From Gammaproteobacteria bacterium (GTDB taxonomy: Bacteria > Pseudomonadota > Gammaproteobacteria > SURF-13), in NCBI GenBank assembly GCA_030655395.1, contig JAURVQ010000109.1, positions 1 to 45,817 on the forward strand: 45,817 bases of DNA, given 5' to 3'. Positions within the stretch are counted from its first letter, which is position 1. Each line of letters opens with the position of its first letter. Positions 7,670 to 45,817 of this stretch are shown in pieces. Position numbers and translations under genes: made by a program. Below the pieces are notes generated by a model. It saw only the letters and a list, made by a program, of their open reading frames with translations. It ran no database searches and was not told the DNA's origin.

Positions 7670-7821
7670 TTACTCATTAAGTCAGCAAGTAAGATGCACT
7701 ACCCGCTACGTCCCCGCCCCCTGTTTAGGGGGCGGGACAGGGTGGGGGTAGAGTAAACAGGGTTTTTACTCAGGAGTCACACCCTAAGGTAATGTAGCCT
7801 TACTTTGTGACTCCTGAGTAA
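7670..7821 (+). repeat. Interspersed structured repeat, family 1, copy A (152 bp)
   Basis: TTACTCAT...CCCGCCCCCTGTTTAGGGGGCGGGACAGGGTGGGGGTAG...TTACTCAGGAGTCAC...GTGACTCCTGAGTAA; matches copies at 20298, 34923, 40686, 45741. Confidence 0.95.
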
Positions 7822-7865
7822 TACGCTCCATAAGGAGGTAATGTAACACAGGTCATCTTCTCATT

Positions 7866-8900
7866 TCATGAGGCCGGATAATGCTGCCACACCCAGCGCC
7901 ATACCACCCAGCCACCGACAGCAACAGTGAGCAATATGATGGGCAATAAAACAGGTCTGCTCCAGCCGAGCATGGTCAGCGGCCACAGCACCATGACGTT
8001 CACACCGATCAGGCCCAGCAGAACCTGACGGTGACTGTAACCTGCCTGAATCAGGCGCTGATACGTGTGGGAGCGGTGCGCGGCATACCATTTTTCTCCG
8101 CGCAGAATACGCGCGGCCAAGGTGTACCCCGTATCGAGTATGAATACAGCGAGCAGCAGCAACCATAGGGTGAGCGGCAGATCACCCGACTGCTCCGTGC
8201 CGAGTGCGAGCACGGCAAATATGAAACCCAGCAGCCCGCTGCCGACATCGCCCATGAAGATTCTGGCGCGCGGCCAGTTCCAGACCAGAAAACCGGCGCT
8301 CGCGGCAGCGAGGCTGAATGTCGTCAGCGCAACGCCAAAGGCACCGTTCAGGCACAGCAGGAAGCCGGCGGCGCTGGCAGCACACAGCGCCTGTGCGCCG
8401 GCGAGGCCGTCGCTGCCGTCCATGAAATTGTAGAGATTGGTGGCCCACACGATACCGAGCACGGCAACCGCCCAGCCCAGCCACGTGAATGCGGCGGGAA
8501 GACTTCTGTCACCCAGAATTTCTACGCCACCCAGCCAAAACAGCGCCCATGCAGCCGCTGCCACGTGCACCAGCAGCCTCCATTGAATCGCGACATGGTA
8601 CCGGTCATCGCGCCAGCCGATCCATGACACCAGTCCGCCGCCGCCGATCAGGGCCCACGCCAGATTTGACGGGATCAGTTGCTCCCACGCCAGCACCGCC
8701 GTTGCCGTAAAAAAGGTGACGGCAATCGCAAGTCCGCCGCCGCGCGGGGTAGGCACGCTGTGCAGACTGCGCTCGTTAGGGATATCCGATACACCTCGGC
8801 GCAATGCGTAATCACGCATCAATGAGGTCATCCACACGGAGAGTGCGAAGACAGTAGCGGCGGTGAGAGCGGAAAAGAGAAGCACGTGACTCGCAGTCAA
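7866..8900 (-). CDS. Undecaprenyl-phosphate glycosyl-1-phosphate transferase (WecA/MraY-type, GT4)
   Basis: RSLHSVPTPRGGGLAIA, NLYNFMDGSDGLAG, MGDVGSGLLGF motifs with multiple TM helices. Confidence 0.9.
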   Translation of the reverse strand: MTASHVLLFSALTAATVFALSVWMTSLMRDYALRRGVSDIPNERSLHSVPTPRGGGLAIAVTFFTATAVLAWEQLIPSNLAWALIGGGGLVSWIGWRDDRYHVAIQWRLLVHVAAAAWALFWLGGVEILGDRSLPAAFTWLGWAVAVLGIVWATNLYNFMDGSDGLAGAQALCAASAAGFLLCLNGAFGVALTTFSLAAASAGFLVWNWPRARIFMGDVGSGLLGFIFAVLALGTEQSGDLPLTLWLLLLAVFILDTGYTLAARILRGEKWYAAHRSHTYQRLIQAGYSHRQVLLGLIGVNVMVLWPLTMLGWSRPVLLPIILLTVAVGGWVVWRWVWQHYPAS

Positions 8901-8962
8901 AACGGGCTTTCAGGGCCACGAGAGCAAACGCGGCGCACCGTACTTTATGTTACGTGCGCAGC

Positions 8963-9049
8963 CTAGCGCTTGCCAAACAATACAGACACGAGAAAGGCGG
9001 CCACCAGTACCGTCGCCGCCACTCCAAACATCGTCCACGTCAGATCCAT
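8963..9049 (-). CDS. Small single-TM protein (28 aa) immediately downstream of fccB
   Basis: MDLTWTMFGVAATVLVAAFLVSVLFGKR*; AAGGA Shine-Dalgarno-like motif 8 nt before the ATG; 21 bp after the fccB stop; below the ORF-track size cutoff. Confidence 0.55.
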   Translation of the reverse strand: MDLTWTMFGVAATVLVAAFLVSVLFGKR

Positions 9050-9070
9050 GATATTAATCCTTGGTAATCC

Positions 9071-10411
9071 TTAGCCAAACATATCGCCGTATAACGCCTC
9101 TGCCCAGTCGAGAGTGGCCTCGCCCTTGATGGCATCGCGCTTTTCATCCGTGCCGGTGCCTTCCTTGGCGGGGCTGAACGCATTGGTCTGTTTGTCGTAA
9201 TTAAAGCTTACCCACATGCTGATCGCCTCTTTCGGCTCCGCGTTCACCATCGAGTAGCACAAACTGGCGGGGCTGGTCCAATCCATCGCCTTGCCCGCTG
9301 CATGCGCGGCGATGACCTTGGCCACGTATTTGCCCTCGCTGTTGGCGAGGTGTGCGCTCTTGGGGAAGCCCATCGGCCGGCTGTCGCCGGTCACGTATAC
9401 GCGCGGGTCGCCCGGTACGTGGTATTTCTGCACATCTATGCGCGCCTCTTTTTGCGGGCTCTTGGCATCCACCAGGCCCGCCACTTCAATCAATTTTGAG
9501 GCGCGTACTCCGGGATAAATCGCGGCCTCGTCGAACTTATAGGAGTCAAACTCGGTTTCGATGGTTTTCGTGTCCGCGTCCACACCGGTGATGTTGATCG
9601 AGGGTACATATTCCACATAGTCCTTGTACAGCTCATCGAACGCGGCGTGAAATCCGGCCTTCTTCACCGCGATGTCGGGGTTGTTATCCAGCACCAGCAC
9701 CTTGCCCTTGATTTTGTGTTTCTTGAAGTAAGCCGCAATCATGCAGGTGCGCTCGTACGGCGCGGGCTTGCAACGGAAGTTGCCGCCCGGCACGGTCTGC
9801 ACGAAAATTCCACCTTTGAAGTTTTCGATCTTGCGTTTGATCGAGACGTGCTCGTCTCCCATCATCCAGCCGGCCGGATGCTCGGTGCGCAGGCGGTATT
9901 CGGTGTCCGGATCCTTGATGCCGATGCGCTCATAGTCGTAGTCTATGCCGGGCGCCAGCACCAGGTAATCATAGGCGATCTCGCCCTGATCGGTATGCAC
10001 CTTGCGCGCGCTGCGATCCACGCCGGTGCAGGTGGCGCTAAAGAAGGTGTAGCCGCCGTTCCTGGCCGCGTCGAGAAAACTGTGTCCGGCGAGAAACTCC
10101 AGATTGATGACGCCTGCGTACCACAGATTGCTGGCAAAACATGAGCTGTACATGGCGCGCTTTTCCACTAGCACCACGTCGAATTTTGGATTTTCCTTTT
10201 TCAGATACTTGGCGATGGTGAGACCGGAGGTGCCGCCGCCCACCACCACCACGCGCGGGCCCCTGGCCTTGGGCAGATAGGCCTTGCCGCGCGAGTGCAC
10301 CGCTGCGGACTTTGGCGCCGCATCGGCGGGTGCCGCATGCCCACCCAGCCCTGCGGCCGCCAGTGCCGCGCCCGTCAGCTTGACAAAATCGCGTCTCGAT
10401 ATCTTGCTCAT
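9071..10411 (-). CDS. fccB: FAD-dependent sulfide dehydrogenase flavoprotein (FccB/SoxF type), Tat signal
   Basis: MSKISRRDFVKLTGAALAAAGLGG Tat-type leader, VVVVGGGTSGLTIAKYLKK, YVTGDSRPMGFPKSAHLANSEGKYVAKVI, FCSD-like C-terminal region. Confidence 0.85.
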   Translation of the reverse strand: MSKISRRDFVKLTGAALAAAGLGGHAAPADAAPKSAAVHSRGKAYLPKARGPRVVVVGGGTSGLTIAKYLKKENPKFDVVLVEKRAMYSSCFASNLWYAGVINLEFLAGHSFLDAARNGGYTFFSATCTGVDRSARKVHTDQGEIAYDYLVLAPGIDYDYERIGIKDPDTEYRLRTEHPAGWMMGDEHVSIKRKIENFKGGIFVQTVPGGNFRCKPAPYERTCMIAAYFKKHKIKGKVLVLDNNPDIAVKKAGFHAAFDELYKDYVEYVPSINITGVDADTKTIETEFDSYKFDEAAIYPGVRASKLIEVAGLVDAKSPQKEARIDVQKYHVPGDPRVYVTGDSRPMGFPKSAHLANSEGKYVAKVIAAHAAGKAMDWTSPASLCYSMVNAEPKEAISMWVSFNYDKQTNAFSPAKEGTGTDEKRDAIKGEATLDWAEALYGDMFG

Positions 10412-10504
10412 GGCCGTACCTCTGGTAGCACTTTAAGTGTTTCGATTTTGATCCGTAGCCTATACCAAGCGCGCGCCCAAGAAAAGAGGCCGCAGGCTAT
10501 AACT

Positions 10505-11155
10505 TTATTTTTGTGCGGAAGGACAGATACGCGCCAGACAACACGAGTCACAACGCGGGCGCGGGCGGCAGATGTCCTTGACGTGAACCACAATCAGCGC
10601 GTGAAATTCGTTGAACAGCGCGATCCGGTCGTCACTGCGGGCGAGGCGCCGCTCCATCCCGGCGCGCAGCACTTCGTACGTTTCATTACCGGCGATAAGT
10701 CCCAGGCGCCCGAACAGCCGTCGCGTATAGGCGTCGATCACGAACACCGGGCGCTCAAAGGCGTACAGCAGGATATCGTCCGCGGTCTCCGGCCCGATGC
10801 CGTGTTGCGCGAGGAGTTCGGCGCGCAGACATGGCGTGTCGCGCCGGTTCAGTGCGTCGAAGCCGCCCTGCTCGACATACCATGCGCACAAACTGCGCAG
10901 GCGCCGCGCCTTGACATTGAAATAGCCGGACGGCGTGAGCAGCTTCGCCAACCGCGCGGGCGAAGTGCGGATGATGGCTGCGGCGTCCAGCAGACGTGCC
11001 GAGCGTAGATTGGCGATGGCCTTTTCCACGTTGCTCCACGCGGTATTTTGCGTGAGCACCGCGCCCACCATGACCTCGAACGGCGTCTCGCCCGGCCACC
11101 AGTGCTGCGGCCCGTGTTGACGGTAGAGTTTCCGGTATACCGTCGTGAAACGCAT
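10505..11155 (-). CDS. Endonuclease III-like HhH-GPD DNA glycosylase with Fe-S loop
   Basis: MVGAVLTQNTAWSNVEKAI, GIGPETADDILLYAF, C-terminal CRPRPRCDSCCLARICP. Confidence 0.85.
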   Translation of the reverse strand: MRFTTVYRKLYRQHGPQHWWPGETPFEVMVGAVLTQNTAWSNVEKAIANLRSARLLDAAAIIRTSPARLAKLLTPSGYFNVKARRLRSLCAWYVEQGGFDALNRRDTPCLRAELLAQHGIGPETADDILLYAFERPVFVIDAYTRRLFGRLGLIAGNETYEVLRAGMERRLARSDDRIALFNEFHALIVVHVKDICRPRPRCDSCCLARICPSAQK

Positions 11156-11170
11156 ACGTTGTTAGAGTCG

Positions 11171-11989
11171 TTACCCGCCGCGTATGCGCCGCTTGGGTGG
11201 GCTGGGGCGACGCGGCGTACGCACCTTTTCAGCCGAGGCTGGCACTGTTTCCGGCTCCAGACCGGCGAGCACACGCAGGCCGTTGAGTTCTTCCGACTCC
11301 AGTTCTTTAGATTGTCCGCGGCGCAGGGTGCGGCCAAGCTGGATGTCACCGTAGCGTATCCGGATGAGCCGGCTCACCGTGATGCCTTGTGATTCCCACA
11401 GACGCCGCACCTCATGCTTGCGGCCTTCCTTCAGCACCACGTGGTACCAGTGATTCGCGCCGTCGCCACCGGCGTCGGCGATGGAATCGAAATGTGCGTC
11501 GCCATCCTCCAGCATCACGCCTTGCTTCAGGCGCGCGAGCATGGCGGCATCTACCTCGCCCAGCACGCGCACGGCGTATTCACGCTCCACCGCACGCGAC
11601 GGGTGCATGAGACGATGTGCCAGCTCGCCATCGGTAGTGAGCAGAATCAGGCCGGAGGTGTTGATATCGAGCCTGCCGATGGCGATCCAGCGGCCTGCGC
11701 GCAACACCGGCAGCCGCTCGAAGATGGTTTTACGTTGCTCGGGGTCGTCGCGCGTGCATATCTCGCCTTCGGGCTTGTGGTAGACCAGCACGCGGCATTT
11801 CCCGGTGCCGAGTCTGTGTTGCGGCACCGGCTGTCCGTCGATCAGGATTTTATCCTGCACCTCGGCGCGATCACCGAGATTTGCCGGCACGCCATTCAGG
11901 GTGACGCGCCCGGCCTTGATCCAGCCCTCAATCTCGCGCCGCGAACCGTAGCCCGCACGCGCCAGCACCTTTTGCAGCTTTTCACTCAC
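11171..11989 (-). CDS. rluB: 23S rRNA pseudouridine synthase RluB family
   Basis: S4 domain [58 protein letters not shown]. Confidence 0.9.
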
Positions 11990-12620
11990 TTTGTTTAAGT
12001 GACGCTGAGGTCACATCCGCATCCACAACCTCGCCCGAAACTGGGATTTCAATCGCGTGCGCCATGGCCTCCGCTTCCGCGTGAAACACCGTATCCAGCG
12101 CGCTGGTCTCGGGCAGCGGCGGCAATTGCTCCAGGCTGCTGAGATTGAAGTGATCGAGAAACTGCCGTGTCGTGCCATACAGCGCGGGCCTGCCCGGCAC
12201 GTCGCGGTGGCCGACGCTGCGTATCCATTCGCGCTCCAGCAGCGTCTTCATGATCGTGCTGCTCACCGTGACGCCGCGCACCTCTTCGATCTCGCCGCGC
12301 GTGATGGGCTGGCGGTAGGCGATGAGCGCGAGCGTTTCGAACAATGCGCGCGAATAGCGCGGCGCGCGCTCCTCCCACAGGCGGGCCAGCCACGGGCTCA
12401 ACTCCTGCTTTACCTGGAAGCGGAAGCCGCTGCCCACTTCGACCAGCTCGATACCGCGCGTCGCACATTCGTCACGCAAGGCGGCAAGTACGTCACGCAC
12501 CTGCTCGCGTGCAGGGCGCTCTTCGTCGCTGAACAACGCCAGCAGCCGCTCCATGCTCAGCGGTTCTCCGGCGGCAAACAGTGCCGCCTCGATCAGATTT
12601 TTCAGTTGCTCAGGATTCAT
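11982..12620 (-). CDS. scpB: Segregation and condensation protein B
   Basis: [25 protein letters not shown]...[29 protein letters not shown]. Confidence 0.93.
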
Positions 12621-13440
12621 GGAGAGTGCTCGCCGCCCGCACGTAGATCGGTCCCCATGTCTCGCTCTGGGCCAGCTCGATCAGGGATTCTTTAATCAGC
12701 TCAAGCAACGCAAGAAACGTGACCACCACGCCGCTGCGCCCCTCGCTGAGCGGGAACAGCGCGCTGAATTCGACAAACTTGTCCGCGCTCACCAGGCTCA
12801 GCACATGAGACATGCGCTCCCGCACCGACAACGGCTCGCGCCGGATATGGTGGTGGGTGTACATCACCGTGCGCTGCATCACCTCCTGGAATGCGTGCAG
12901 CAGCTCCTCCAGGCTCACCGTGGGCTGCGGCCGGCTGCGTTCGGCGAGATTCACCGTCGCCAGCGCGTGAAATACGTCGCGCCCCAATTGCGGACGCGCA
13001 TCCAGTTGCTCGGCAACCTGCTTGTAACGCTCGTACTCCTGTAACCTGCGCACCAGCTCCGCGCGCGGGTCTTCCTCTTCGGCGGCCAGCGGCGGGCGCG
13101 GCAGAAGCATGCGCGATTTTATTTCCGCGAGCATCGCCGCCATCAGCAGATATTCCGCCGCAAGTTCGAGCCGCAGGCCCTGCATCAGATCGACATATTC
13201 GATATATTGCTGGGTGATGCGCGCGATGGGAATATTCAGGATATCGAGATTCTGGCGCTTGATGAGATAGAGCAACAGATCGAGCGGCCCCTCGAAGGTA
13301 TCGAGAAAGACCTCCAGCGCATCGGGCGGTATATAGAGATCGAGCGGCATGCGCGTGACCGGCGCGCCCTCCACCATGGCGAGCGGTGGTTCGCTCTGCA
13401 CGGCCTCGGGTTCAATGCTTGTCGTCTCGGTGTGCATCAT
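12610..13440 (-). CDS. scpA: Segregation and condensation protein A
   Basis: FEGPLDLLLYLIKRQNLDILNIPIARITQQYIEYV; start set at 13440 because the longer ORF runs into trpS. Confidence 0.92.
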   Translation of the reverse strand: MMHTETTSIEPEAVQSEPPLAMVEGAPVTRMPLDLYIPPDALEVFLDTFEGPLDLLLYLIKRQNLDILNIPIARITQQYIEYVDLMQGLRLELAAEYLLMAAMLAEIKSRMLLPRPPLAAEEEDPRAELVRRLQEYERYKQVAEQLDARPQLGRDVFHALATVNLAERSRPQPTVSLEELLHAFQEVMQRTVMYTHHHIRREPLSVRERMSHVLSLVSADKFVEFSALFPLSEGRSGVVVTFLALLELIKESLIELAQSETWGPIYVRAASTLHES

Positions 13441-13447
13441 CGCGCGC

Positions 13448-14665
13448 TCAACGGTACACCAATCCCATCGCCTGACGGACTTCGTCCAGCGTGTCCCGCG
13501 CCACATCGCGCGCGGCCTCGCACCCTTCGGCGATGATGCTGCGCACCAGCGCGGGATTTTTAACAAACTGCTCCGCACGTTCGCGGATCGGCGCAAGCTC
13601 GGCCTGCACCGATTCGATGAGCGGCTTTTTGCAGTCGAGACAGCCGATGCCGGCGCTGCGGCAACCCTGCTGCACCCAGCCCTTGACCTCGTCCGAGGAA
13701 TATACCTGATGCAGCGCCCACACCGGACATTTTTCCGGCTCGCCCGGATCGGTTCTGCGCACACGCGCCGGGTCGGTCGGCATGGCGCGCATCCTGGTCT
13801 CGATAGACTTCGGGTCTTCCCGCAGCGCGATGGTATTGTTATACGACTTCGACATCTTCTGGCCGTCCAGGCCGGGCATCTTGGGCGTGGGCGTGAGCAG
13901 CGCGTGCGGCTCAGGCAGAATGATGCGCCCGCCGCCCTCCAGAAAACCGAACAGACGTTCGCGGTCGCCGAGCGTAATGTTCTGGCGCGCCTCGATCAGT
14001 GCGCGCGCGGTATCGAGCGCGGCATGGTCGCCCTGCTCCTGATAACGCTTGCGCAATTCGTCGTAGAGTTTGGCATTTTTCGCGCCGAGCTTTTTGACTG
14101 CCGCCGCGGCCTTTTCTTCGAAGCCGCGCTCGCGTCCGTACATATGATTGAAGCGCCGCGCCACCTCGCGCGTCAACTCCACGTGCGCCACCTGGTCTTC
14201 GCCCACCGGCACCTGACCGGCCTTGTATATCAGGATATCCGCGCTCTGCAATAACGGGTAACCGAGAAAACCGTAGGTGGCGAGGTCCTTTTCCCTGAGC
14301 CTTTCCTGCTGGTCCTTGTAGCTCGGCACACGCTCGAGCCAGCCGAGCGGCGTAATCATCGACAGCAGCAGATGCAGCTCCGCATGTTCCGGCACGCGCG
14401 ACTGGATGAACAGCTTGGCGGCGCCGGGATTGATATCCGCCGCGAGCCAGTCGATCACCATGTCCCACACGCTCTCGCCGATGATGGCGGGGTCTTCGTA
14501 GTGCGTGGTGAGTGCGTGCCAGTCGGCGACGAAGAAAAAACATTCGTATTCGTGCTGCAGCCGCAGCCAGTTTTTCAGCACGCCGTGATAGTGGCCGAGG
14601 TGCAACTGCCCGGTCGGACGCATGCCGGAGAGTACGCGCTGGTGTTGTGCAGGTAGGGAACTCAA
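13448..14665 (-). CDS. trpS: Tryptophanyl-tRNA synthetase
   Basis: RVLSGMRPTGQLHLGHYHGVL, GLDGQKMSKSYNNTI. Confidence 0.95.
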   Translation of the reverse strand: MSSLPAQHQRVLSGMRPTGQLHLGHYHGVLKNWLRLQHEYECFFFVADWHALTTHYEDPAIIGESVWDMVIDWLAADINPGAAKLFIQSRVPEHAELHLLLSMITPLGWLERVPSYKDQQERLREKDLATYGFLGYPLLQSADILIYKAGQVPVGEDQVAHVELTREVARRFNHMYGRERGFEEKAAAAVKKLGAKNAKLYDELRKRYQEQGDHAALDTARALIEARQNITLGDRERLFGFLEGGGRIILPEPHALLTPTPKMPGLDGQKMSKSYNNTIALREDPKSIETRMRAMPTDPARVRRTDPGEPEKCPVWALHQVYSSDEVKGWVQQGCRSAGIGCLDCKKPLIESVQAELAPIRERAEQFVKNPALVRSIIAEGCEAARDVARDTLDEVRQAMGLVYR

Positions 14666-14677
14666 AGCGTGGCCTCC

Positions 14678-17369: not shown

Positions 17370-20291
17370 GTGACGGAACACGCTCACACCACGCCCCTCC
17401 TGGTGCCTTATCACCAGGATCCGCTTACTCTACTTGCCCACCACCTCCTCGACCACCACGCGGCTGACCTGAGCCGCGTGGTGGTTTTGCTGCCGCAGCT
17501 GCACTCCGCAGCGCGTCTGCGGCACTGTCTGCTCGACGCGGCACGGCAGCGCAGCCATGCGGCACTGCTCGGCCCCCACATCACCACGCTGCGCCACTGG
17601 GTTGCGCGTGCCCCTGCTCACCATGGCCACACATTGGCGCGGCACGCAGCAGAACTCCTGCTGGCCGAATCACTCGCCGAACATCCCGGCCTGCTCGGCG
17701 GGGAGAATCCCTGGCGGCTGGTGGACAGCCTGTTGCAGTTATTCGACGAGCTGACGCTCCATGCCGTGCGCCTGCCGGACGATCTGGGGCATTTCACACA
17801 GCAACTGCTCACCGCCTACGGTGTCACCTCCAAAGTGAGTGGGCTGAGCCGTGAAGCGAATCTCGTCCACACCCTCTGGCGCGCCTGGCACCAGCAGCTC
17901 CAGGCCGAGGGCACTGCCGATGCCAACAGTGCCTATGTGCACAAGCTCGCGGCAAGTCTCGACCAGACCACAGCAAACCTGCATTTCTATCTCGGCGACG
18001 GCCTTGACCTCACGCCGGTCGAGCTGGCCTGGGCACACCGGCTGGCCGGGCAAGGCCGGTTGACGTGGCTGATTCACGGCGTGCCCGCCGCATCCGTTCA
18101 GCCCACGGACTATCATCCTGATGCCCCGCTGCTTGCCCTGATGAATATAATAGAAAATACAACTGAATCAAATATATGTATCGATAACATTACACAATTC
18201 ATTAACTCTGTTTACGCCCCGCCCGCAACACCGCTCCGCCTCCGGGCGCAGGCGTTTGCGCAGCAACAGCCGGCGAGCCCGGTGCAGGATAGCCTGCGCG
18301 TATTCACGGCAGGCGCGCCTGAGCACGAGGCGCAGGCGATAGACCTGCAAATACGGCTCTGGCTGCTGGCAGGCAAAACCCATATCGGCATCATCACCGA
18401 AGACCGGCGCCTCGCGCGCCGGGTGCGCGCACTGCTGGAGCGTGCCGAGGTCGCGGTGCAGGACGACGCCGGCTGGGCCCTCTCCACCACCAGCGCCGCC
18501 AGCGTACTCGAACGCTGGCTGCAAACGCTGGAAGAGGACTTCGCCTGCCTGCCGCTGCTGGATGTACTGAAGTCGCCGTTCGTGTTCGCCGATCAGGAAC
18601 GCACGGGGCTGCTGGCCACGGTCTATCGCTTCGAGCAAGACATCATCCTGCACGAAAATGTCATGCGCGGTCTGGCGCGCTATCGCAAACATCTCGCTTA
18701 CCGTCAGGCGCGCCTGCCTGCCAGCTTCGCCGCTTCGGCACAGGCAGTGGCGCAACTGCTGGATCAACTGGAGCACGCGGCCGCGCCGCTGCTGTTGTTC
18801 ATGGCGGGCAAGCGCCATAAACCGGAGGCGCTGCTCAACGCCTTGCAGGAAAGCCTGCACCGGCTCGGCATCACACAGGCTTGGGCGACAGACGCGGCGG
18901 GGCAATCCATGCTGCGCGAACTGCAGGCGATGCGGCACGCACTCGCCGGACGCACGCTGCGCATGGACTGGACGGACTTCCGCGTCTGGCTGGCGCGCAC
19001 GCTGGAGCGCGCCAATTTCTTCCCCGCCGCGATTGACGCCAGCGTGCATGTGCTGGCGTTGAGGCAGACGGCGCTGATGCGCTTCGACGCCATCGTGATC
19101 GCCGGCGCGGACGCCGCGCACTGGCCGGGCGCCGCCGATGCCTCGCCTTATTTCAATAGCGCGGTACGCCGCGAGCTCGGCCTGCCCACGCCGCACGACA
19201 CCCTCACACGGCGCTATCACGACTGCCGCCGTCTGCTGCAAAGCGCGCCGCAGGTACTCGTTACCGTGTGCCGCGAACAGCAGGGCCAGCCCGTGCGTCC
19301 GAGTCCGTGGCTGGAAATGCTGCAATCCTTCCACCGGCTCGCCTATCAACATGACCTCGAAGACGAAACACTCGCGCGCCTGCTGCAGGACACGCGCACG
19401 CAGGTGTTCCGCTCCGATACCGCCGTCGTGCCGCAGACTATGACCTACCCGCGTCCGTCCGTAGATGCGGCATTGGTGCCCGGTACGCTCTCGGCCAGCG
19501 CGCATCAGCAGATGATCGACTGCCCGTACCAGTTTTTTGCCGCGCGCTGTTTGCGCCTGGAGCCGGTGGAGGCCCTGCGCGAGCGGTTGCAAAAATCGGA
19601 TTACGGCGAACGTGTACACCGCATTCTGAGCGCATTTCATCGCGGCCAAGCCGGGTTGCCCGGCCCGTTCACGGCGGCGCTGACACAGGAAAACCGCGCC
19701 GACGCCGGGGACTGTCTCAGCCAGATCAGCCATGCCGTATTTGCGCAGGACCTCGAAGACAATTTCGAACACCGCGGCTGGCTCAAACGCTGGCTCGCCG
19801 TGCTGCCGCGCTATCTCGACTGGCAGATCGAGCGCGCGCAACACTGGCAGGTCGCAGACTGCGAGGTGGAGATGCAGCGCGTGTACCCGGATATCGAACT
19901 CAAAGGCCGGCTGGACCGTATCGACCACGACGATCATGGCAGCGCCATCATTGACTACAAAACCGGTGCGGCCCTGCCCACGCAAGACGATGTCGAGTCA
20001 GGCGAAGCGGTACAACTCCCGTTTTATGCGCTGCTCGCGCAGGCGTCCGCCCTGCCCGTGACGCGGGTGGAATATGTGGCCATTAAAACCGAAAAAATAT
20101 CCTCCGCCGCGTATCTCGAAGGTGAGGCGCTGACCCGCCTTGCGCACGCCACCGAGCAACGCCTCGTTACACTGCTAAAAGAGTTGCGCAGCGGCGCCCC
20201 GCTGCCAGCGTGGGGCGATGAAAAAACCTGCGCTTATTGCGCAATGTCAGGCTTGTGTCGCAAACAGATGTGGCTCAACGAACCGTCATGA
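17370..20291 (+). CDS. AddB/RecB-family PD-(D/E)XK nuclease (probable DNA repair protein)
   Basis: C-terminal nuclease motifs (ELKGRLDRIDHDDHGSAIIDYKTG) with CPYQFFAARC and CAYCAMSGLC cysteines like the AddB Fe-S clamp; GTG start; partner helicase downstream. Confidence 0.85.
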   Translation: MTEHAHTTPLLVPYHQDPLTLLAHHLLDHHAADLSRVVVLLPQLHSAARLRHCLLDAARQRSHAALLGPHITTLRHWVARAPAHHGHTLARHAAELLLAESLAEHPGLLGGENPWRLVDSLLQLFDELTLHAVRLPDDLGHFTQQLLTAYGVTSKVSGLSREANLVHTLWRAWHQQLQAEGTADANSAYVHKLAASLDQTTANLHFYLGDGLDLTPVELAWAHRLAGQGRLTWLIHGVPAASVQPTDYHPDAPLLALMNIIENTTESNICIDNITQFINSVYAPPATPLRLRAQAFAQQQPASPVQDSLRVFTAGAPEHEAQAIDLQIRLWLLAGKTHIGIITEDRRLARRVRALLERAEVAVQDDAGWALSTTSAASVLERWLQTLEEDFACLPLLDVLKSPFVFADQERTGLLATVYRFEQDIILHENVMRGLARYRKHLAYRQARLPASFAASAQAVAQLLDQLEHAAAPLLLFMAGKRHKPEALLNALQESLHRLGITQAWATDAAGQSMLRELQAMRHALAGRTLRMDWTDFRVWLARTLERANFFPAAIDASVHVLALRQTALMRFDAIVIAGADAAHWPGAADASPYFNSAVRRELGLPTPHDTLTRRYHDCRRLLQSAPQVLVTVCREQQGQPVRPSPWLEMLQSFHRLAYQHDLEDETLARLLQDTRTQVFRSDTAVVPQTMTYPRPSVDAALVPGTLSASAHQQMIDCPYQFFAARCLRLEPVEALRERLQKSDYGERVHRILSAFHRGQAGLPGPFTAALTQENRADAGDCLSQISHAVFAQDLEDNFEHRGWLKRWLAVLPRYLDWQIERAQHWQVADCEVEMQRVYPDIELKGRLDRIDHDDHGSAIIDYKTGAALPTQDDVESGEAVQLPFYALLAQASALPVTRVEYVAIKTEKISSAAYLEGEALTRLAHATEQRLVTLLKELRSGAPLPAWGDEKTCAYCAMSGLCRKQMWLNEPS

Positions 20292-20297
20292 CACACC

Positions 20298-20441
20298 TCA
20301 CTCAGGAGACACAAGAAACACTGCTGACGGGGTGTCTCCTGAGTAAATACCCTGTTAACTCACCCCCACCCTGTCCCGCCCCCTACACAAGGGGCGGGAA
20401 CGTGGCGGAGAGCGCAGTCTTACTCACTGACTTATGAGTAA
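20298..20441 (-). repeat. Interspersed structured repeat, family 1, copy B (144 bp, inverted)
   Basis: Reverse complement matches copy A: TTACTCATAAGTCAGTGAGTAAG...CCCGCCCCTTGTGTAGGGGGCGGGACAGGGTGGGGG...TTACTCAGGAGACAC...GTGTCTCCTGAGTGA. Confidence 0.95.
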
Positions 20442-26926: not shown

Positions 26927-27069
26927 ACATAGCGTCATAAATCGTAGCGAGCGGCTTTCAGGCGGGGGCGGTGGAGCGCAGGAACCGGAGTGTACATTGC
27001 AGTACATGAGGATTCCGAGCACCGCACGCACCCGCATCAAAGACGCGCAGTAGATTTAGGGCGCTATGT
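26927..27069. repeat. Long imperfect palindrome filling the pilZ-radA intergenic region
   Basis: Outer ACATAGCG...CGCTATGT, TAAATC...GATTTA, inner TGTAC-ATTGCA-GTACA; the arms align imperfectly along their length. Confidence 0.8.
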
Positions 27070-33892: not shown

Positions 33893-34900
33893 ATGATCTT
33901 TATCACCCTGATTCTCATGTTGCTGCTGATACTGGTAGCGGCGGAAGTCTTTTGTAACGCCCTGGAGCACCTCGGCGAGCGGCTGAAAATATCCGAGGGT
34001 GTGGTGGGCTCGCTATTCGCCGCCGTCGGCACCGCGCTGCCGGAAACCATGGTGCCGATACTCGCTATTTTCGCAGGCACCGACAACATGGAACTCAACC
34101 ACGAAATAGGCGTCGGCGCCATCCTCGGCGCGCCGCTCATGCTGTCCACCCTCACCCTGTTCCTGCTGCTGGTAGCCACCGTGAAAACCCGCGGGATAAA
34201 CGGCCACTTCACGCCGGAAAAAACCGGCCTGACGCGCGACCTTAACTTCTTCCTGCTCGCCTTTTCACTCGCCGCCATCGCCCTGTTCATTCCGCGCGAA
34301 TTCGACGTTATCCGCATCGCCATTGGTTTCGGCCTGGTGTTGGTCTACTTTATTTACATCATGCTCACCCTGCGCGCCTCCAGCAAGCTGGTGCAGGACG
34401 GCCATGCCACAGAAGCCCACGGCGTCATGCTGCTGTGCCGCATGGGGCTGCCGCTCAACTATCCTGTGATCTATCTTCAGCTGGGTCTGGGCCTGACACT
34501 GCTGATACTGGGCGCCAAGGGCTTCATACATGGCATCGAAGAAGTCGCGCCGATCATCGGCATCTCGGCACTGCTGCTGTCACTGCTGATTATCCCCGTC
34601 GCCACCGAGCTGCCGGAAAAGGTCAACAGCATCCTGTGGATACGCAAACGCAAGGACACCCTCGCCTTCGGCAACATCACCGGCGCGATGGTGTTTCAAG
34701 GCACGCTGCTGCCCGCCATCGGCATCATGCTCACCCCCTGGGGGCCGCGCCTGGACGTGGTGCTCGGCGTGATGGTGACCTTGGCGGCGGCGCTCTGGAT
34801 ACGCCTCATGCTGCAGCGCGGCCAGTTACGTGTCTGGCACGTGGCCGTGAACGGGGTTTTATACGTGAGCTATATCGCGGTGGTATTGAGTTTCCCTTGA
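33893..34900 (+). CDS. Sodium/calcium exchanger (CaCA) family membrane protein
   Basis: Two repeats: FCNALEHLGERLKISEGVVGSLFAAVGTALPETMVPI and FIHGIEEVAPIIGISALLLSLLIIPVATELPEKVNSI. Confidence 0.85.
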   Translation: MIFITLILMLLLILVAAEVFCNALEHLGERLKISEGVVGSLFAAVGTALPETMVPILAIFAGTDNMELNHEIGVGAILGAPLMLSTLTLFLLLVATVKTRGINGHFTPEKTGLTRDLNFFLLAFSLAAIALFIPREFDVIRIAIGFGLVLVYFIYIMLTLRASSKLVQDGHATEAHGVMLLCRMGLPLNYPVIYLQLGLGLTLLILGAKGFIHGIEEVAPIIGISALLLSLLIIPVATELPEKVNSILWIRKRKDTLAFGNITGAMVFQGTLLPAIGIMLTPWGPRLDVVLGVMVTLAAALWIRLMLQRGQLRVWHVAVNGVLYVSYIAVVLSFP

Positions 34901-34922: not shown

Positions 34923-35072
34923 TTACTCATAAGCCAGTAAGTAAGATGCACTACCCGCCACGTCCCCGCCCCTTGTTTAGGGGGCGGGACAGGGTGGGGG
35001 TAGATAAAACAGTGTAGTTACTCAGGAGTCACATCATCAGCATTGTGGCCTAACTTCCTGACTCCTGAGTAA
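34923..35072 (+). repeat. Interspersed structured repeat, family 1, copy C (150 bp)
   Basis: TTACTCATAAGCCAGTAAGTAAGATGCACTACCCGCCACGTCCCCGCCCCTTGTTTAGGGGGCGGGACAGGGTGGGGGTAG...GACTCCTGAGTAA; near-identical left arm to copy A. Confidence 0.95.
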
Positions 35073-35817
35073 CATTTGCGCGCTGGCGCACGGCCTCATA
35101 CAGGCAGATGCCGGTGGCTACCGACACATTGAGGCTTTCCACGCTGCCGTGCATGGGGATGCGGATGAGCACATCGCAGTGCTCGCGGGTGAGGCGGCGC
35201 AGGCCTTGGCCTTCACCGCCCATGACCAGCGCCAGCGGGCCTTTCAGATCGGCGTCGTAGAGGCTGGTGTCGGCGGTGCCGTCGGCGCCGATCAACCACA
35301 CACCGGCATCGCGCAGGCTGCGCAGGGTGCGGGCGAGGTTGGTGACCTGGATGAACGGCACGGACTCGGCCGCACCGCTGGCCACTTTGCGCACGGTGGG
35401 CGTGAGGCTGACACTTTTGTCGCGCGGCGCGATCACAGCATGCACGCCTGCGGCATCGGCGCTGCGCAGGCACGCGCCGAGGTTGTGCGGGTCTTGCACG
35501 CCGTCCAGCACCAGTAAAAACGGCGGCGCGGTGAGCGTAGTGAGGATGGCGTCGAGATCGTCTTCGGTGTGCGCCTTGGCCTGCGCGCATTGCGCCACTA
35601 CGCCTTGATGGGGCGCGCCTTCGGCCATTGCGTCCAACTGCTGGCGCGTGACGTTATGCACCGTAACCTTCGCCTGCTGTGCCAGCGTGAGTATTTCCTG
35701 CATGCGCGCATCGCGGCGTGAGTCGTCCACCCACACGCCGGTCACCGCCGTGGCATTCCGGCGCAGTGCGGCCTGCACTGCATGCAGGCCGTGGACGAGG
35801 TCAGTTGCGCGAGTCAT
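35050..35817 (-). CDS. rlmB: 23S rRNA 2'-O-methyltransferase RlmB (SpoU family)
   Basis: FLLVLDGVQDPHNLGACLRSADAAGVHAVI, LALVMGGEGQGLRRLTREHCD, SLNVSVATGICLYEAVRQR. Confidence 0.94.
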   Translation of the reverse strand: MTRATDLVHGLHAVQAALRRNATAVTGVWVDDSRRDARMQEILTLAQQAKVTVHNVTRQQLDAMAEGAPHQGVVAQCAQAKAHTEDDLDAILTTLTAPPFLLVLDGVQDPHNLGACLRSADAAGVHAVIAPRDKSVSLTPTVRKVASGAAESVPFIQVTNLARTLRSLRDAGVWLIGADGTADTSLYDADLKGPLALVMGGEGQGLRRLTREHCDVLIRIPMHGSVESLNVSVATGICLYEAVRQRANVTQESGS

Positions 35818-36320: not shown

Positions 36321-36434
36321 AAATTCCTTCCCCCTTGACGGGGGAAGGTTGGGATGGGGGTGAAAAGTCCATGCACAAGGTGCTTTACACACCCCCACCC
36401 TCGCCCTCCCCCATCGAGGGGGAGGGGAAATTCT
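36321..36434. repeat. Two-hairpin C/G-tract palindromic element, family 2
   Basis: CCTTCCCCC-TTGAC-GGGGGAAGG (36326-36348) and CCCTCCCCC-ATCGA-GGGGGAGGG (36404-36426) flanked by AAATTCC and GGGGAAATTC; GGTTGGGATGGGGGTG faces CACCCCCACCCTCGCC. Confidence 0.88.
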
Positions 36435-38867: not shown

Positions 38868-38872
38868 TATCG

Positions 38873-38940
38873 TAGGTCGGATCAAGCGTAGCGGATCCGA
38901 CGCATGTCGGTTCCGCACTGCGTGCTTGAACCGACCTACA
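38873..38940. repeat. REP-like inverted repeat GTAGGTCGGATC...GAACCGACCTAC
   Basis: Outer stem GTAGGTCGG/CCGACCTAC; alternative inner stems GTCGGATC/GATCCGAC and GTCGGTTC/GAACCGAC. Confidence 0.88.
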
Positions 38941-38944
38941 TGAT

Positions 38945-39511: not shown

Positions 39512-39520
39512 AGTGTTGTG

Positions 39521-40642
39521 TCAGGTATTTTGAATCACGATCTTGGGAAACTTGGCACTGAAATCCTTGGCGCGCAATGAAAGCTTGGCGGCCACGCGGC
39601 GCGCAATCTCACGGTAAATCTGCGCGATGCGGCCTGCGGGATCGGCAATCACGCTGGGATGTCCGCCGTCTGCATTTTCACGAATACTGATATCGAGCGG
39701 CAACGCACCCAGCAGGTCCACATTATACTGCGCGGCCATGCGCTCGCCGCCGCCCGCGCCGAAAATATGCTCTTCATGTCCACACTGGCTGCAAATGTGC
39801 GTGTTCATGTTCTCTATGATGCCGAGCACCGGCACCTCGACCTTCTCGAACATCTTGAGCGCCCTGCGCGCATCCAGCAGTGCGATGTCCTGCGGCGTGG
39901 TCACTATCACCGCACCACTCACCGGAATTTTCTGCGCCAGCGTCAGTTGAATGTCGCCGGTGCCGGGCGGCAGGTCGATGACGAGATAATCCAGCGCCTT
40001 CCATTGTGTATCGTTGAGGAGTTGCTCCAGCGCCTGGGTGACCATCGGGCCGCGCCAGATCATGGGCGCCTCCTCGTCAATCAGATAGCCGATGGACATG
40101 GACTGGATGCCGTGGCTCATTACCGGCTCCATGCCTTTGCCGTCTTTCGAGGTCGGGCGTGTGTTCACACCCAGCATGAGCGGCTGGCTGGGGCCATAGA
40201 TGTCGGCATCGAGTATGCCGACGCTGGCGCCCTCAGCCGCCAGCGCGAGCGCGAGATTCACCGCCGTCGTGGACTTGCCCACGCCGCCCTTGCCGGAAGC
40301 CACGGCGATGATGTTTTTTATATTGGCGTGCGGCTTTACATTTTTCTGCGCCGCGTGCGCAACCACGCTGGACGAGATATTCACCGTCACCGCGCGCACC
40401 TGAGGCAGCGCTCCGACTTTCGTCCGAATGCCCGCCGCGAGGGTATCCTGATAGCCTTTCGCCGGGTAGCCCAGCACGACGTCCACAATCACGCTACCAT
40501 CGTCGATGGCGATATTCTTTACCGCCTTGGCGGAAACCAGGTCCTGCTGTAAATAAGGGTCGATGACCTCGCGCAAGGCCGCCTCGACCTGCGATTGGGA
40601 AACATTTTCCACTACAATCCTCCGGGGCGCCGCCCCTATCAT
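39521..40642 (-). CDS. apbC: Iron-sulfur cluster carrier ApbC/Mrp P-loop ATPase
   Basis: AVASGKGGVGKSTTAVNLALALA, DADIYGPSQPLMLGV, PPGTGDIQLTLAQ, CSQCGHEEHIFG. Confidence 0.95.
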   Translation of the reverse strand: MIGAAPRRIVVENVSQSQVEAALREVIDPYLQQDLVSAKAVKNIAIDDGSVIVDVVLGYPAKGYQDTLAAGIRTKVGALPQVRAVTVNISSSVVAHAAQKNVKPHANIKNIIAVASGKGGVGKSTTAVNLALALAAEGASVGILDADIYGPSQPLMLGVNTRPTSKDGKGMEPVMSHGIQSMSIGYLIDEEAPMIWRGPMVTQALEQLLNDTQWKALDYLVIDLPPGTGDIQLTLAQKIPVSGAVIVTTPQDIALLDARRALKMFEKVEVPVLGIIENMNTHICSQCGHEEHIFGAGGGERMAAQYNVDLLGALPLDISIRENADGGHPSVIADPAGRIAQIYREIARRVAAKLSLRAKDFSAKFPKIVIQNT

Positions 40643-40685
40643 AAGCGCATAATTTTACACGGATTCATTGCCGCGCGGTGATCTT

Positions 40686-40837
40686 TTACTCAGGAGGCAC
40701 AAAGTCAGGAGCACACTGTTGACGAGGTGCCTCCTGAGTAAAAACACTGTTTACTCTACCCCCACCCTGTCCCGCCCCCGAAACAGGGGGCGGGGACGTG
40801 CAGGAGGGTTCAATATTAATAATGAACTTATGAGTAA
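40686..40837 (-). repeat. Interspersed structured repeat, family 1, copy D (152 bp, inverted)
   Basis: TTACTCAGGAGGCAC...GTGCCTCCTGAGTAA...CTACCCCCACCCTGTCCCGCCCCCGAAACAGGGGGCGGGGACGTG...CTTATGAGTAA. Confidence 0.95.
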
Positions 40838-40882
40838 CGTCTCGGCTTGCTACAATGGCCACCTTAACATCAGCTCACGGCC

Positions 40883-42964
40883 ATGCCAGACACCCGCAAA
40901 ATCCTCGTCACCAGCGCCCTCCCCTACGCCAACGGGGCGATCCACCTCGGCCATCTGGTGGAATACATCCAGACAGACATCTGGGTGCGCTTTCAGAAGA
41001 TGCAGGGGCACGACTGCACCTACGTGTGCGCCGACGACGCGCACGGCACGCCCATCATGCTGCGCGCACAGCAGGAAGGCATCGCGCCGGAGGCGCTGAT
41101 CGCACGCATCAGCCAGGAGCATCAGGCGGACTTCAAGGCGTTTGGCGTGGCGTTCGACAACTACCACTCCACGCATTCGCCCGAGAACGAGGCGTTTGTG
41201 CGCGACATTTATCTAAAACTGCGCAAGAACGGCCACATCACACAACGCACCATCAAGCAGGCCTACGACCCGGTCAAGGAGATGTTTCTGCCGGATCGTT
41301 TCATCAAGGGCGACTGCCCACGCTGCGGCGCGAAAGACCAGTACGGTGACAGCTGCGAAGTCTGCGGCGCGACGTATTCACCCACGGATTTGAAAAATGC
41401 GGTGTCGGCGCTCTCCGGCGCGAAGCCCATCGAAAAGGAGTCCGAGCATTATTTCTTCAAGCTCGGTGATTTTGAACCCATGTTGCGCGAGTGGTTGAAT
41501 CCGGACATCACTCAAACACGCCACGTACAGTCCGAAGCGGCCAACAAACTCAACGAATGGTTCGACGCAGGATTGCAGGATTGGGATATCTCGCGCGACG
41601 CGCCCTATTTCGGCTTCGAAATTCCCGACGCGCCCGGCAAATACTTTTACGTCTGGCTCGATGCCCCGGTCGGCTACATGGCAAGCTTCAAGAGCTATTG
41701 CGAGCGCACAGGCATCAACTTCGACGACTACTGGCGCAAAGACAGCAAGGCCGAGCTTTATCATTTCATCGGCAAGGATATTCTCTACTTCCACGCCCTG
41801 TTCTGGCCCGCGATGCTGGAAGGCTCCGGCTATCGCAAACCTACTGCGGTTTATGCCCACGGCTTCCTCACCGTGAATGGCCAGAAAATGTCCAAGTCGC
41901 GCGGCACGTTTATCACCGCGCGCACCTATCTGGATCATCTGAATCCGGAGTATTTGCGTTATTACTACGCAACCAAGCTCAACAGCTCGATGGAGGATAT
42001 TGATCTCAGCCTGGAGGATTTTGTCGCGCGGGTGAACAGTGACCTGATCGGAAAATACATCAACATTGCGAGCCGGACTGCCGGCTTCATCCATAACCGC
42101 TTTAGCGGTAAACTGACAGACAAAATATCCCCGCTTGGTCACAAGGTGACGAAACAATTAGAGCTGGGCGCGGATACTATCGCCAGGTTTTACGAGGAGC
42201 GTGAATATTCCAAGGCTATGCGCGAGATTTCCCGTCTTGCGGATATCGCCAATCAGTACGTGGATGAGATGAAGCCGTGGGAGTTGGCCAAAAATCCCGA
42301 TGCTGGTCATCACTTGCATGAGGTATGCAGTGTGAGCCTGAATCTATTCCGGCAGCTTACTTGTTACCTCAAGCCTATTTTGCCCGAGACGGCTAAAAAG
42401 GTTGAATCGTTCTTGAATATCCCACCCCTGAATTGGCATGAAAACATTCACCTGATTCCCTCGGACTCCATCAAGAAATACGAGCACCTCATGACCCGCA
42501 TAGACCCAAAGCAAGTTGAATCCATACTCGTAGCCAGCAAGGAAAGCGGACAAGTTGACCAAATCCCCCCTACCCCCCCTATCCCCCCTTTAACAAAGGG
42601 GGGGGGCGAAGCGGGGGGATTTACGCCCATTATGGAAATCATCAGCATCGACGACTTCGCCAAAATTGATTTGCGCATCGCGCGCATCATCAAAGCCGAG
42701 CATGTCGAAGGCGCGGAGAAGCTGCTGAAACTCACGCTGGACATCGGCGAGGAAAAACCGCGTACGGTATTCGCCGGCATCAAATCGGCTTACCAGCCCG
42801 CCGACCTGGAAGGCAAGCTGACAGTAATGGTGGCGAATCTCGCGCCGCGCAAGATGAAGTTCGGCCTGTCGGAAGGCATGGTGCTTGCTGCGGGGCCGGG
42901 TGGGAAGGACTTGTGGATATTGGAGCCTCACGCGGGCGCACAGCCAGGTATGCGCGTGAAATAA
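40883..42964 (+). CDS. metG: Methionyl-tRNA synthetase with C-terminal tRNA-binding domain
   Basis: [42 protein letters not shown]-terminal [34 protein letters not shown]. Confidence 0.96.
42561..42622. repeat. C/G-tract palindromic element inside metG, family 3
   Basis: AAATCCCCCCTACCCCCCCTATCCCCCCTTTAACAAAGGGGGGGGGCGAAGCGGGGGGATTT; terminal AAATCCCCCC/GGGGGGATTT inverted repeat. Confidence 0.85.
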
Positions 42965-43013
42965 TTCGCCCCCCTTACATGGGGAGGACAATTAAAAAAG
43001 CAGGAGACAATGC

Positions 43014-43217
43014 ATGCCGGAATATCATGTTCACGTCCACGGTGCACACGAGCACGAAGTTGAGCATGAGACGCAGCATGGGTCTGGGTTGGCGCAATCC
43101 GTGACGCTGCTGCAAATCGCCATTGCGCTTGCGTCGATCACCGTGTTGACGTGCAAGAAATGGCTGCTGGTATTCGCCGGTGCTGCGGCTGCGGGCGGTT
43201 GCGCGCTGTGGGCCTAG
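43014..43217 (+). CDS. Short His-rich membrane protein, possible shortened DUF4337-like protein
   Basis: MPEYHVHVHGAHEHEVEHETQHGSGLAQSVTLLQIAIALASITVLTCKKWLLVFAGAAAAGGCALWA. Confidence 0.55.
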   Translation: MPEYHVHVHGAHEHEVEHETQHGSGLAQSVTLLQIAIALASITVLTCKKWLLVFAGAAAAGGCALWA

Positions 43218-43242
43218 GCATGGCTCGCGTAGGCACTTCGTC

Positions 43243-43869
43243 ATGAAGGAAATCCTGTATGACTGGAACGGCGCCAACGTCTGGCTGTTTCATTTCATTA
43301 ACGATATCCGTGGCGACACACTTGACCGCGTAATGACATTCGGCTCGCAGTTGGGCGCGCCTTTGAGTTTTTCCAATTATCTCGGGCTGATTGCATTGTT
43401 TGCGGTCGCGCACGTGGCCCACGTCACGCGCCGCCATGCCACGTTGGTGCATGAACAGACACTGCGTTGGCTCGCGCTGATCGCGGTGTTTGCCATCGCC
43501 TACGTCATCGACACCGTGATCGTGAGTATGCTCAAGTACTGGCTCGACTTCCCCCGCCCTCCGCTCGCGCTGGGTGCGGCGGCGGTGCACAGCATCGGCG
43601 CGCCGGAGTTTCATCACAGCCTGCCGAGCGGACATGCCTCGTTCGCCGCGCTGCTCGCAGCGAGTCTGTGGCCCGCACTCAACCGCTATGGGCGCATCGC
43701 GGCCATCCTGTATGTGCTATGGGTAGGTGTGTCGCGCGTCAGCCTTGGCGTACACTTCCCCGCCGACGTCTTGTTGTACAGCTTTACCTTGAGCCTCGCG
43801 GTCGTGCTGCCCATCCGCAGCTTCGTCTACTCCACTCTGGGCGTTGTACCGTCACGGCCTGCTGTATAA
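43243..43869 (+). CDS. PAP2-family phosphatase, membrane
   Basis: [39 protein letters not shown]: the three PAP2 motifs; start at ATG 43243. Confidence 0.92.
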
Positions 43870-43880
43870 TAAAGCTGACC

Positions 43881-44546
43881 ATGCCCTGCGCTGCCATTAC
43901 CCTGACTGCGGAGGTCGAACGCGATCCGCTCACGGAAAAAATCGACGCACTGCTGCCGCAGACACAATGTCGCCAGTGCAGTTATGCAGGTTGCCGTCCC
44001 TATGCCGAGGCTATCGCCAAGGGCGAGGCGGACATCAACCAATGTCCTCCCGGGGGCGAGGCAACCATCGTCGCGCTCGCGGACTTGCTCAGGCGCAATC
44101 CGAAGACGCTCAATACCCAATATGGTGTGAGCAAGCCGAAGATGCTCGCTGTGATTGATGAGCAACTCTGCATCGGCTGCACCTTGTGTATACAGGCCTG
44201 TCCAGTGGACGCCATCCTCGGAGCCGCGAAACAGATGCACACGGTAATCGCCGATGAATGCACCGGCTGCGAACTGTGCCTGCCGCCCTGCCCCATAGAC
44301 TGTATTCACATGACGCCTCTGTTCAATTACATCGAGTGCGACACCTCTGCGGCAGTGCGCCCGAGCCCTATGCCGCGGGTACAGCATTATCGCTACAAAG
44401 ATGAAATCACGTCACACGAGCATGAAAAACAAAAGGCTGACATTGCGCGCCAGCGCCATAAATTCCGCCTTGCCCGCCTGGCGCGGGAACAAGCCGAGCG
44501 TGAAGCGCGCCACGCCGAAAAAAAGACAGCGCTCGCCAAGCAGTAG
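43881..44546 (+). CDS. rsxB: RnfB/RsxB-like Fe-S electron transport protein
   Basis: [32 protein letters not shown] and two 4Fe-4S motifs [14 protein letters not shown] / [14 protein letters not shown]; start at ATG 43881. Confidence 0.9.
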
Positions 44547-44653
44547 GCGCTACGGGAAGAAAGGTGCATTGACGGAATTTGACTGTATTCGCAGCAGCGC
44601 CCACGCAATATAAAATAGCTTGCACAGCCGTCCACAAAGAAAACCGAATCGAA

Positions 44654-45304
44654 ATGAACCCGCAAAAACGCCGTGCGATCTTCACGCGTCTTCAGCGCGC
44701 CAACCCGACGCCCGCCACCGAGCTGAATTACAGCAGCCCATTTGAGCTGCTGATCGCCGTGATTCTGTCCGCACAGGCCACGGACAAGAGCGTTAATCGG
44801 GCCACCGCGCGGCTGTTTCAGGCCGCCAACACCCCGCAGGCCATACTCAAGCTGGGCGAAGACGGACTCAAGAACCATATCAAGACTATCGGACTCTATA
44901 ACAGCAAGGCACGCAATATCATCAAAACCTGTGCGTTGTTGATGGAAAGACACCACGGCCAGGTACCGCACGAACGCGCCGCGCTAGAGGCCCTGCCCGG
45001 CGTTGGCCGCAAGACTGCCAACGTCGTCCTCAACACCGCTTTCGGTGAACCTGTCATCGCCGTGGATACGCATATCTTTCGTGTCGCCAACCGCACCGGG
45101 CTTGCGCCGGGAAAAAATGTGGCCGAGGTGGAAAGGAAGCTGATGCGGCTTGTCCCCGCCGAGTTCAGGCAAGACGCACATCACTGGCTGATTCTGCACG
45201 GGCGTTACACCTGTGTTGCGCGCAAACCGCGCTGCGGTGCGTGCCTGATTTATGATTTATGTGAATATAAAAACAAGACTGAAAGCGAGGAAGAACAGGT
45301 ATGA
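44654..45304 (+). CDS. nth: Endonuclease III
   Basis: LLIAVILSAQATDKSVN, LPGVGRKTANVVLNTAFGEPVIAVDTHIFRVANR, C-terminal Fe-S loop CVARKPRCGACLIYDLC. Confidence 0.95.
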   Translation: MNPQKRRAIFTRLQRANPTPATELNYSSPFELLIAVILSAQATDKSVNRATARLFQAANTPQAILKLGEDGLKNHIKTIGLYNSKARNIIKTCALLMERHHGQVPHERAALEALPGVGRKTANVVLNTAFGEPVIAVDTHIFRVANRTGLAPGKNVAEVERKLMRLVPAEFRQDAHHWLILHGRYTCVARKPRCGACLIYDLCEYKNKTESEEEQV

Positions 45305-45762
45305 TATTCGCCCAGGATCGACGCGAGATGCGGCGTATTTTCTTCAACGCGTGGATAAAATATCGCGCGCAACAACCACTGGAGGACATGGAACAGCAGA
45401 TTGCGGATGTCATCCTGCTGCATCCTGAATATCATGCCCTGCTCGCGGATGAAGAGGTCGCGCTCGACAGCGACTACACGCCCGAACAGGGAGAGTCAAA
45501 CCCTTTCCTGCACATGGGCCTGCACATCGCGATTCGTGAACAACTGACCACGCGACGCCCGCCAGAAATCAACGAACTCTATCAGCAGCTGTTGGAAAAA
45601 TTGCGTGATGCGCACGAAGCGGAACATCGCATGCTGGAATGTCTGGGAGAAGTGTTATGGCGCGCACAGCGCGATGCCGTCGAGCCGGATGTGGCGGAGT
45701 ATGTGATGTGCCTGCGCCGCGCTGCTGGGCTGAAGCCGCCTTGCTCAGGAATCACAAAGTAA
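45301..45762 (+). CDS. DUF1841 family protein
   Basis: MIFAQDRREMRRIFFNAWIKYRAQQPLEDMEQQIADVILLHPEYHALL...NPFLHMGLHIAIREQ. Confidence 0.82.
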   Translation: MIFAQDRREMRRIFFNAWIKYRAQQPLEDMEQQIADVILLHPEYHALLADEEVALDSDYTPEQGESNPFLHMGLHIAIREQLTTRRPPEINELYQQLLEKLRDAHEAEHRMLECLGEVLWRAQRDAVEPDVAEYVMCLRRAAGLKPPCSGITK

Positions 45763-45817
45763 GGCTGCACTTCCCGCCACGTCCCCGCCCCTTGTTTAGG
45801 GGGCGGGACAGGGTGGG
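45741..45817 (+). repeat. Interspersed structured repeat, family 1, copy E (cut by window end)
   Basis: TTGCTCAGGAATCACAAAGTAAGGCTGCACTTCCCGCCACGTCCCCGCCCCTTGTTTAGGGGGCGGGACAGGGTGGG; matches the left half of copies A and C. Confidence 0.92.

Follow-up and report, generated by a model that had tools for sequence, protein, structure and literature searches.

The window analysed here, a stretch of 45,817 bases, carries several copies of a repeat of about 150 bp, which raises the question of whether this repeat is a mobile element, a dispersed structured RNA or a member of an already catalogued family, and whether the copies that have settled in the genome do anything there. We examined its copies in the window, in the genome from which the window comes (G000; a MAG of 1.72 Mb in 120 contigs, 97.9% complete) and in a sister species (G001; also a MAG, collinear with the window at about 91% identity), as well as its relatives across the class.

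Copies in the window

The five copies listed in the original prediction were all recovered with the same coordinates and strands (Table 1). Complete copies in the window are 144–152 bp long, and all four either lie between genes or extend a few codons into a gene end; the rlmB reading frame, for example, terminates within copy C. Copy E is incomplete because the window is a whole contig that ends inside it, and several other contigs likewise end inside copies. The left end of copy E (TTGCTCAGGAATCACAAAGTAAGG) is similar to the usual right end of the family.

Table 1. Coordinates of the copies in the window, of the parts of copy A, and of variant forms at other loci
Feature	Position	Strand	Remark
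Copy A, complete	7670..7821	+	flanked by the minus-strand genes 5757-7658 and 7866-8900
Copy A, target duplication (TA)	left 7671..7672, right 7819-7820	+	from filled/empty comparison
Copy A, GC hairpin CCCCGCCCCC-TGTTTA-GGGGGCGGG	7712..7736	+	
Copy A, G-rich conserved block ACAGGGTGGGGGTAG	7737..7751	+	alignments A1 and A2
Copy A, terminal palindrome TTACTCAGGAGTCACA...TGTGACTCCTGAGTAA	7766..7821	+	arms 7766-7781 and 7806-7821
Copy B, complete	20298..20441	-	apparent addB-addA operon, within 5' end of addA
Copy C, complete	34923..35072	+	between convergent genes 33893-34900 (+) and rlmB 35050-35817 (-)
Copy D, complete	40686..40837	-	between divergent genes apbC 39521-40642 (-) and metG 40883-42964 (+)
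Copy E, first 77 bases only	45741..45817	+	cut by contig end
Long form, three extra hairpins in first loop	L145:1500-1725, L136:1297-1523, L139:1500-1729, L225		
Subfamily with other ends	L105:6318-6450, L101:6725-6866, L035:1444-1589, L102:6008		

Copy B is inserted at codon 4 of addA, and its own end (CTTATGAGTAAC) provides an in-frame ATG at 20434 that restores the addA frame, so that the N-terminus of AddA reads MSNASAPEH in G000 and MTHLNNASAPEH in G001. By eye, the original addA start in the addB-addA junction (20289-20434) appears to run through copy B, and this frame apparently stops at a TGA overlapping the new ATG. Since addB-addA has the look of a single operon, copy B is probably transcribed.

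Copy number and distribution

The expectation of many further copies in the genome was borne out: a profile built from the copies found 67 in G000, of which 56 are nearly full-length, and another 65 in the searched part of G001. If up to 3 mismatches are allowed, the 22-nt left end has 25 occurrences in the genome, as against 0 for the pattern read backwards; this control is informative for the left end and uninformative for the G-rich core, because the core is nearly symmetrical. According to a covariance model, whose e-values are rough, 10 of the 369 genomes sampled from the class contain convincing relatives, and these 10 come from five families. In at least four other families, the relatives retain the layout and the GC/G-rich core, with ends of the form TTACT...AGTAA and the core GGGCGGGACAGGGTGGGGGTAG. 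The sequence of their terminal palindrome, in contrast, differs completely between lineages yet still pairs, as in GCTAAGGCGAAACA...TGTTTCGCCTTAGTAA (L256) and TTACTGACACAGTCATTG...CAATGACTGTGTCAGTAA (L259). Weak R2 matches in about 19 more genomes were left out of the count; of the three inspected, L351 is a different G-rich repeat, L349 is doubtful, and L350 holds part of the core and comes from a genome already found by R1.

Searches for a catalogued counterpart drew in nothing. No family of Rfam 15 matched the element above its gathering threshold, and a loose threshold gave only noise; the plasmids and phages searched held no match, nor did blastn at e ≤ 0.01 against 5,426 genomes of E. 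coli, a carrier of ERIC. The core 12–15-mers retrieved only unrelated human or viral sequences from open-access papers, and closed literature may differ. We therefore regard this family of non-autonomous, TA-targeted mobile elements of about 150 bp as undescribed, with the reservation that it may bear another name in closed literature. Two other features of the window were noted. At 36331-36430 lies a G-rich double-hairpin repeat of another kind, CCCCCACCCTCGCCCTCCCCC...GGGGGAGGGG, which resembles the core of the element and has counterparts at other intergenic sites in G001 (L311:15614) and in other genomes (L351). At 26933-27007 (-) there is an Rfam match to the Xanthomonas sRNA sX9, scoring 46.3 against a threshold of 44 bits.

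Anatomy and predicted fold

In the sense direction the element begins with a left end, TTACTCATAAGTCAGTAAGTAAG, followed by a variable stretch, a hairpin of the form CCCCGCCCC(C)-loop-GGGGGCGGG, the block ACAGGGTGGGGGTAG, the motif GAGTAAA, a short spacer, and finally TTTACTCAGGAGTCAC-loop-GTGACTCCTGAGTAA. The previously noted inverted ends, TTACTC...GAGTAA, are indeed terminal inverted repeats; left and right ends are alike beyond the first six bases, with up to 24 of 30 positions matching. The internal GAGTAAA/TTTACTC brings the end motif to four occurrences per element, which is why the predicted fold consists of two adjacent stem-loops, the first comprising the GC hairpin and the G-rich block and the second the terminal palindrome. 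The predicted folding energy is -71 kcal/mol, whereas simple shuffles give -40 kcal/mol. The aligned copies contain indels, and their stops fall in different frames, which bears out the view that no internal ORF is conserved. From the hairpin to the G-rich block the sequence is almost invariant in alignment A1 (64 copies), and the block itself is the most conserved part of the family in both A1 and A2. Conservation is higher inside the element than at its ends, unlike in most MITEs.

The terminal palindrome shows strong compensatory change. Among the 15 sequences of A2, both sides have changed in 14 of the palindrome's 16 pairs, and the cells with such double changes number 48 as against 16 in shuffles, with no slid version coming close. 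Pairing is retained in 89% of cells, compared with 74% in shuffles and about 40–52% in slid versions. The GC hairpin hardly varies, and covariation is therefore uninformative on its pairing.

A long form of 225–232 bp occurs in G004, G002 and G000, its extra hairpins lying within the first loop in the order GGGGTGAGGC-hp-GCCGAAC-hp-CTGGACTTTTGCGC; the helices of these hairpins also differ in compensating ways. The hairpin module of the long form is also found alone (L179:4030-4129, L198:7173-7250), and a subfamily in the same genome combines the same core with other ends (TACTAAG... / ...TTTCTTCTTGGTA).

Insertion polymorphism and target duplication

Comparison of the two sister species allowed filled and empty sites to be distinguished directly. 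Twenty-five full-length copies in one species face an empty site in the other: where both flanks of a full-length G000 copy are present in G001, 16 sites are empty, 10 filled and 5 occupied by other sequence, and the reverse comparison gives 9 empty, 8 filled and 2 with other sequence. In the window, copies A and B are missing from G001 (empty sites L113:5294-5298 and L113:18459-18465), while the G001 copies at L113:10122, L113:13333 and L114:7767 are missing from the window. The element is thus mobile, a conclusion that we hold with near certainty, and its many copies at many polymorphic sites are the opposite of a few copies at identical syntenic positions. Such mobility makes a family of dispersed transcription terminators or immobile RNA genes barely credible: the stable predicted folding would suit these, but clean empty sites with a target duplication contradict immobility, and a terminator would be expected to have a T-run after the GC hairpin, which is lacking, and not to be under-represented between convergent genes (see below). 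Nearest-neighbour copies in G000 are up to 98% identical, which indicates recent spread there.

The original prediction had seen no clear target-site duplication; this proved wrong, as the empty sites reveal a duplication of 2 bp, usually TA. About 21 empty sites could be read by eye, with the targets TA (10), TG (5), TC (2), CA (2) and GA (2). At L100:10084 (TG) and L174:6698 (TC) the non-TA dinucleotide flanks the copy twice and is present once in the empty allele, and hence it is duplicated target and not sequence of the element. The target dinucleotide of copy A is CA in the empty allele of G001. Of 92 copies, 59 are flanked by TA at both ends, the flanking bases show a preference for T-TA-A, and the duplicated TA usually lies within TTAA. 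As the terminal TTA/TAA includes the target duplication, the element proper is CTC...GAG. Taken with the terminal inverted repeats, the lack of a conserved ORF and the high copy number, this insertion polymorphism with clean empty sites and 2-bp TA duplication upholds the earlier reading as a non-autonomous MITE, a label that we consider very probably right. The same-site pairs L181/L118, L090/L161 and L107/L125 are a separate case, in that the copies are very different despite orthologous flanks; we attribute this to replacement by recombination or to repeated insertion.

Search for a transposase partner

A TA duplication is typical of IS630/Tc1 elements. No IS630-type transposase (DDE_3) was found in G000–G003, G005 or G027, and the terminal repeats at the DDE_3 loci of G004 (one locus) and G313 do not match the element; an IS630 partner among these loci was accordingly rejected. 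DDE_Tnp_1, an IS5-type candidate, is absent from G000–G002. On account of the TA duplication we infer that a DDE transposase of IS630/Tc1-like type, acting in trans and now lost or unsampled, would have spread the element.

The other mobile reading put forward at the outset, a REP/BIME element moved by a RAYT (Y1 transposase), appears very improbable. It would fit a palindromic, intergenic, high-copy repeat, and RAYTs do occur in most of the relatives that carry it; however, G000, with about 65 copies, has no Y1 transposase, no copy lies at the RAYT loci of repeat-bearing relatives, the four RAYTs of G001 being without flanking copies, and neither a 2-bp target duplication nor a length of 150 bp suits REPs, which are palindromes of 20–40 bp associated with a RAYT that the repeat flanks.

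Constraint on resident copies

Column conservation was ranked in 73 copies outside the constraint test, and the ranked columns were then compared in copies that occupy the same site in both species. In eight pairs that look vertically inherited, a small sample defined by a cut-off of ≤20 differences chosen after the data had been seen, differences were found at 9 of 434 positions in conserved columns (2.1%), compared with 38 of 331 in variable columns (11.5%) and 125 of 1094 in the 80-bp flanks (11.4%; Fisher p ~1e-10). With all 11 same-site pairs the direction is unchanged (2.6% for conserved columns, 23% for variable columns and 14.3% for flanks). Because conserved columns diverge far less than the flanks, resident copies look constrained rather than decaying, and we lean slightly towards their having a function.

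Two other readings of these figures have to be weighed. In the first, the element is a plain MITE without a host role, its core being needed for transposase binding or folding and its inserted copies being neutral. The core common across families, the bipartite similarity of left and right ends and the recent burst in G000 are all as this predicts, but it would not lead one to expect orthologous copies to keep their conserved columns five times better than their flanks while the variable columns change at the flank rate, nor the lack of decayed remnants at orthologous sites in the G000/G001 comparison; we judge it unlikely. In the second, gene conversion between copies, and not selection, keeps the core uniform. 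Three same-site pairs, which differ at 27–46 positions, far above the flank prediction, do look as if replaced. In the other eight, the variable columns drift like the flanks and the conserved columns are still fixed, so that conversion does not explain these pairs, and as a general account we find it quite improbable.

The suggestion that the repeat is a dispersed structured RNA is upheld in part, by the strong compensatory change in the second helix and the apparent constraint on resident copies; its transcription is putative.

Gene context

Genes were called with a home-made hexamer gene finder and an overlap cut-off of 40 bases. By this measure, 85 of 91 classified copies from G000 and G001 overlap no predicted gene by more than 40 bases, and in many cases the nearest start or stop codon is only tens of bases away. 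The neighbours of these 85 copies are co-directional in 68 cases, divergent in 13 and convergent in 4, against expected counts of 62.5, 11.0 and 11.5 (p ~0.06 overall). There being no enrichment between convergent genes, a terminator role was rejected. Resident copies set tightly between co-directional genes would be co-transcribed with them and, by analogy with ERIC and Correia elements, might act as folded mRNA segments that affect processing or stability. The reading that we favour, and regard as probable, is accordingly that of an undescribed TA-targeted MITE family mobilised in trans, whose resident copies would serve as co-transcribed folded segments of mRNA. Counting against it are the failure to find a transposase with matching ends at the loci inspected, the higher conservation of the interior and the GC-rich core.

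Relationship to known elements

Since its empty sites show a 2-bp TA duplication, the element belongs with the TA-targeted MITEs of the ERIC, Correia and RUP kind and not with REP. At <200 bp, non-autonomous and without a protein, it agrees with the description of this group, although the rarer long form exceeds that length. It departs from the A+T-rich character of MITEs, as its core is GC/G-rich and A+T richness is confined to the ends; that character is attributed to 'most' elements and so is not exclusive (PMC2229807).

ERIC (IRU/RU-1; enterobacteria, 127 bp) is likewise TA-duplicating, non-autonomous and intergenic with a long stem-loop, has no known autonomous partner and may sit inside operon transcripts (PMC2229807, PMC2759123), whereas the present element has two stem-loops, a GC/G-rich core and the end motif four times. 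Correia/NEMIS (Neisseria, 107 and 155 bp) is also bounded by TA on each side, has long terminal inverted repeats, and comes in a short form and a long one that are set apart by an internal insertion (PMC2229807, PMC10969869), and it, too, lacks a known autonomous partner; in our element, however, conservation is higher inside than at the ends, and the first loop of the long form holds additional covarying hairpins. RNase E or III processes the transcripts of ERIC and Correia elements, RNase III being the enzyme in the case of Correia/NEMIS (PMC10969869, PMC2229807). RUP (Streptococcus pneumoniae, 107 bp), also a TA-targeted MITE, is the sole case in bacteria for which an IS630 partner has been proposed (PMC2229807), in contrast to our element, for which none with matching ends was found. 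YPAL/RU-2 (Yersinia, 167–168 bp) is of similar size, palindromic, intergenic and of high copy number (PMC2759123), but a comparison by eye revealed no obvious sequence relation. Among TA-MITEs the unusual features of the element are its conserved core and its lineage-specific palindromes.

Implications

It has long been asked whether bacterial MITEs are parasites or working parts. Here two sister species with about 65 copies each, at many polymorphic and many shared sites, make gain, loss and constraint directly measurable, and the first measurement of constraint, with conserved columns changing five times more slowly than flanks, favours function. The family also provides an ERIC-like element outside the enterobacteria in which the palindrome sequence changes between families and the pairing is kept. 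We put forward, tentatively and as a possibility that falls short of an even chance, that the element is modular, with a fixed folded core that is selected at its landing sites and exchangeable terminal palindromes, which lineages would have replaced outright without loss of the pairing, the layout or the TA target; if this were true, it would be a mobile mRNA-control cassette and not a decaying parasite.
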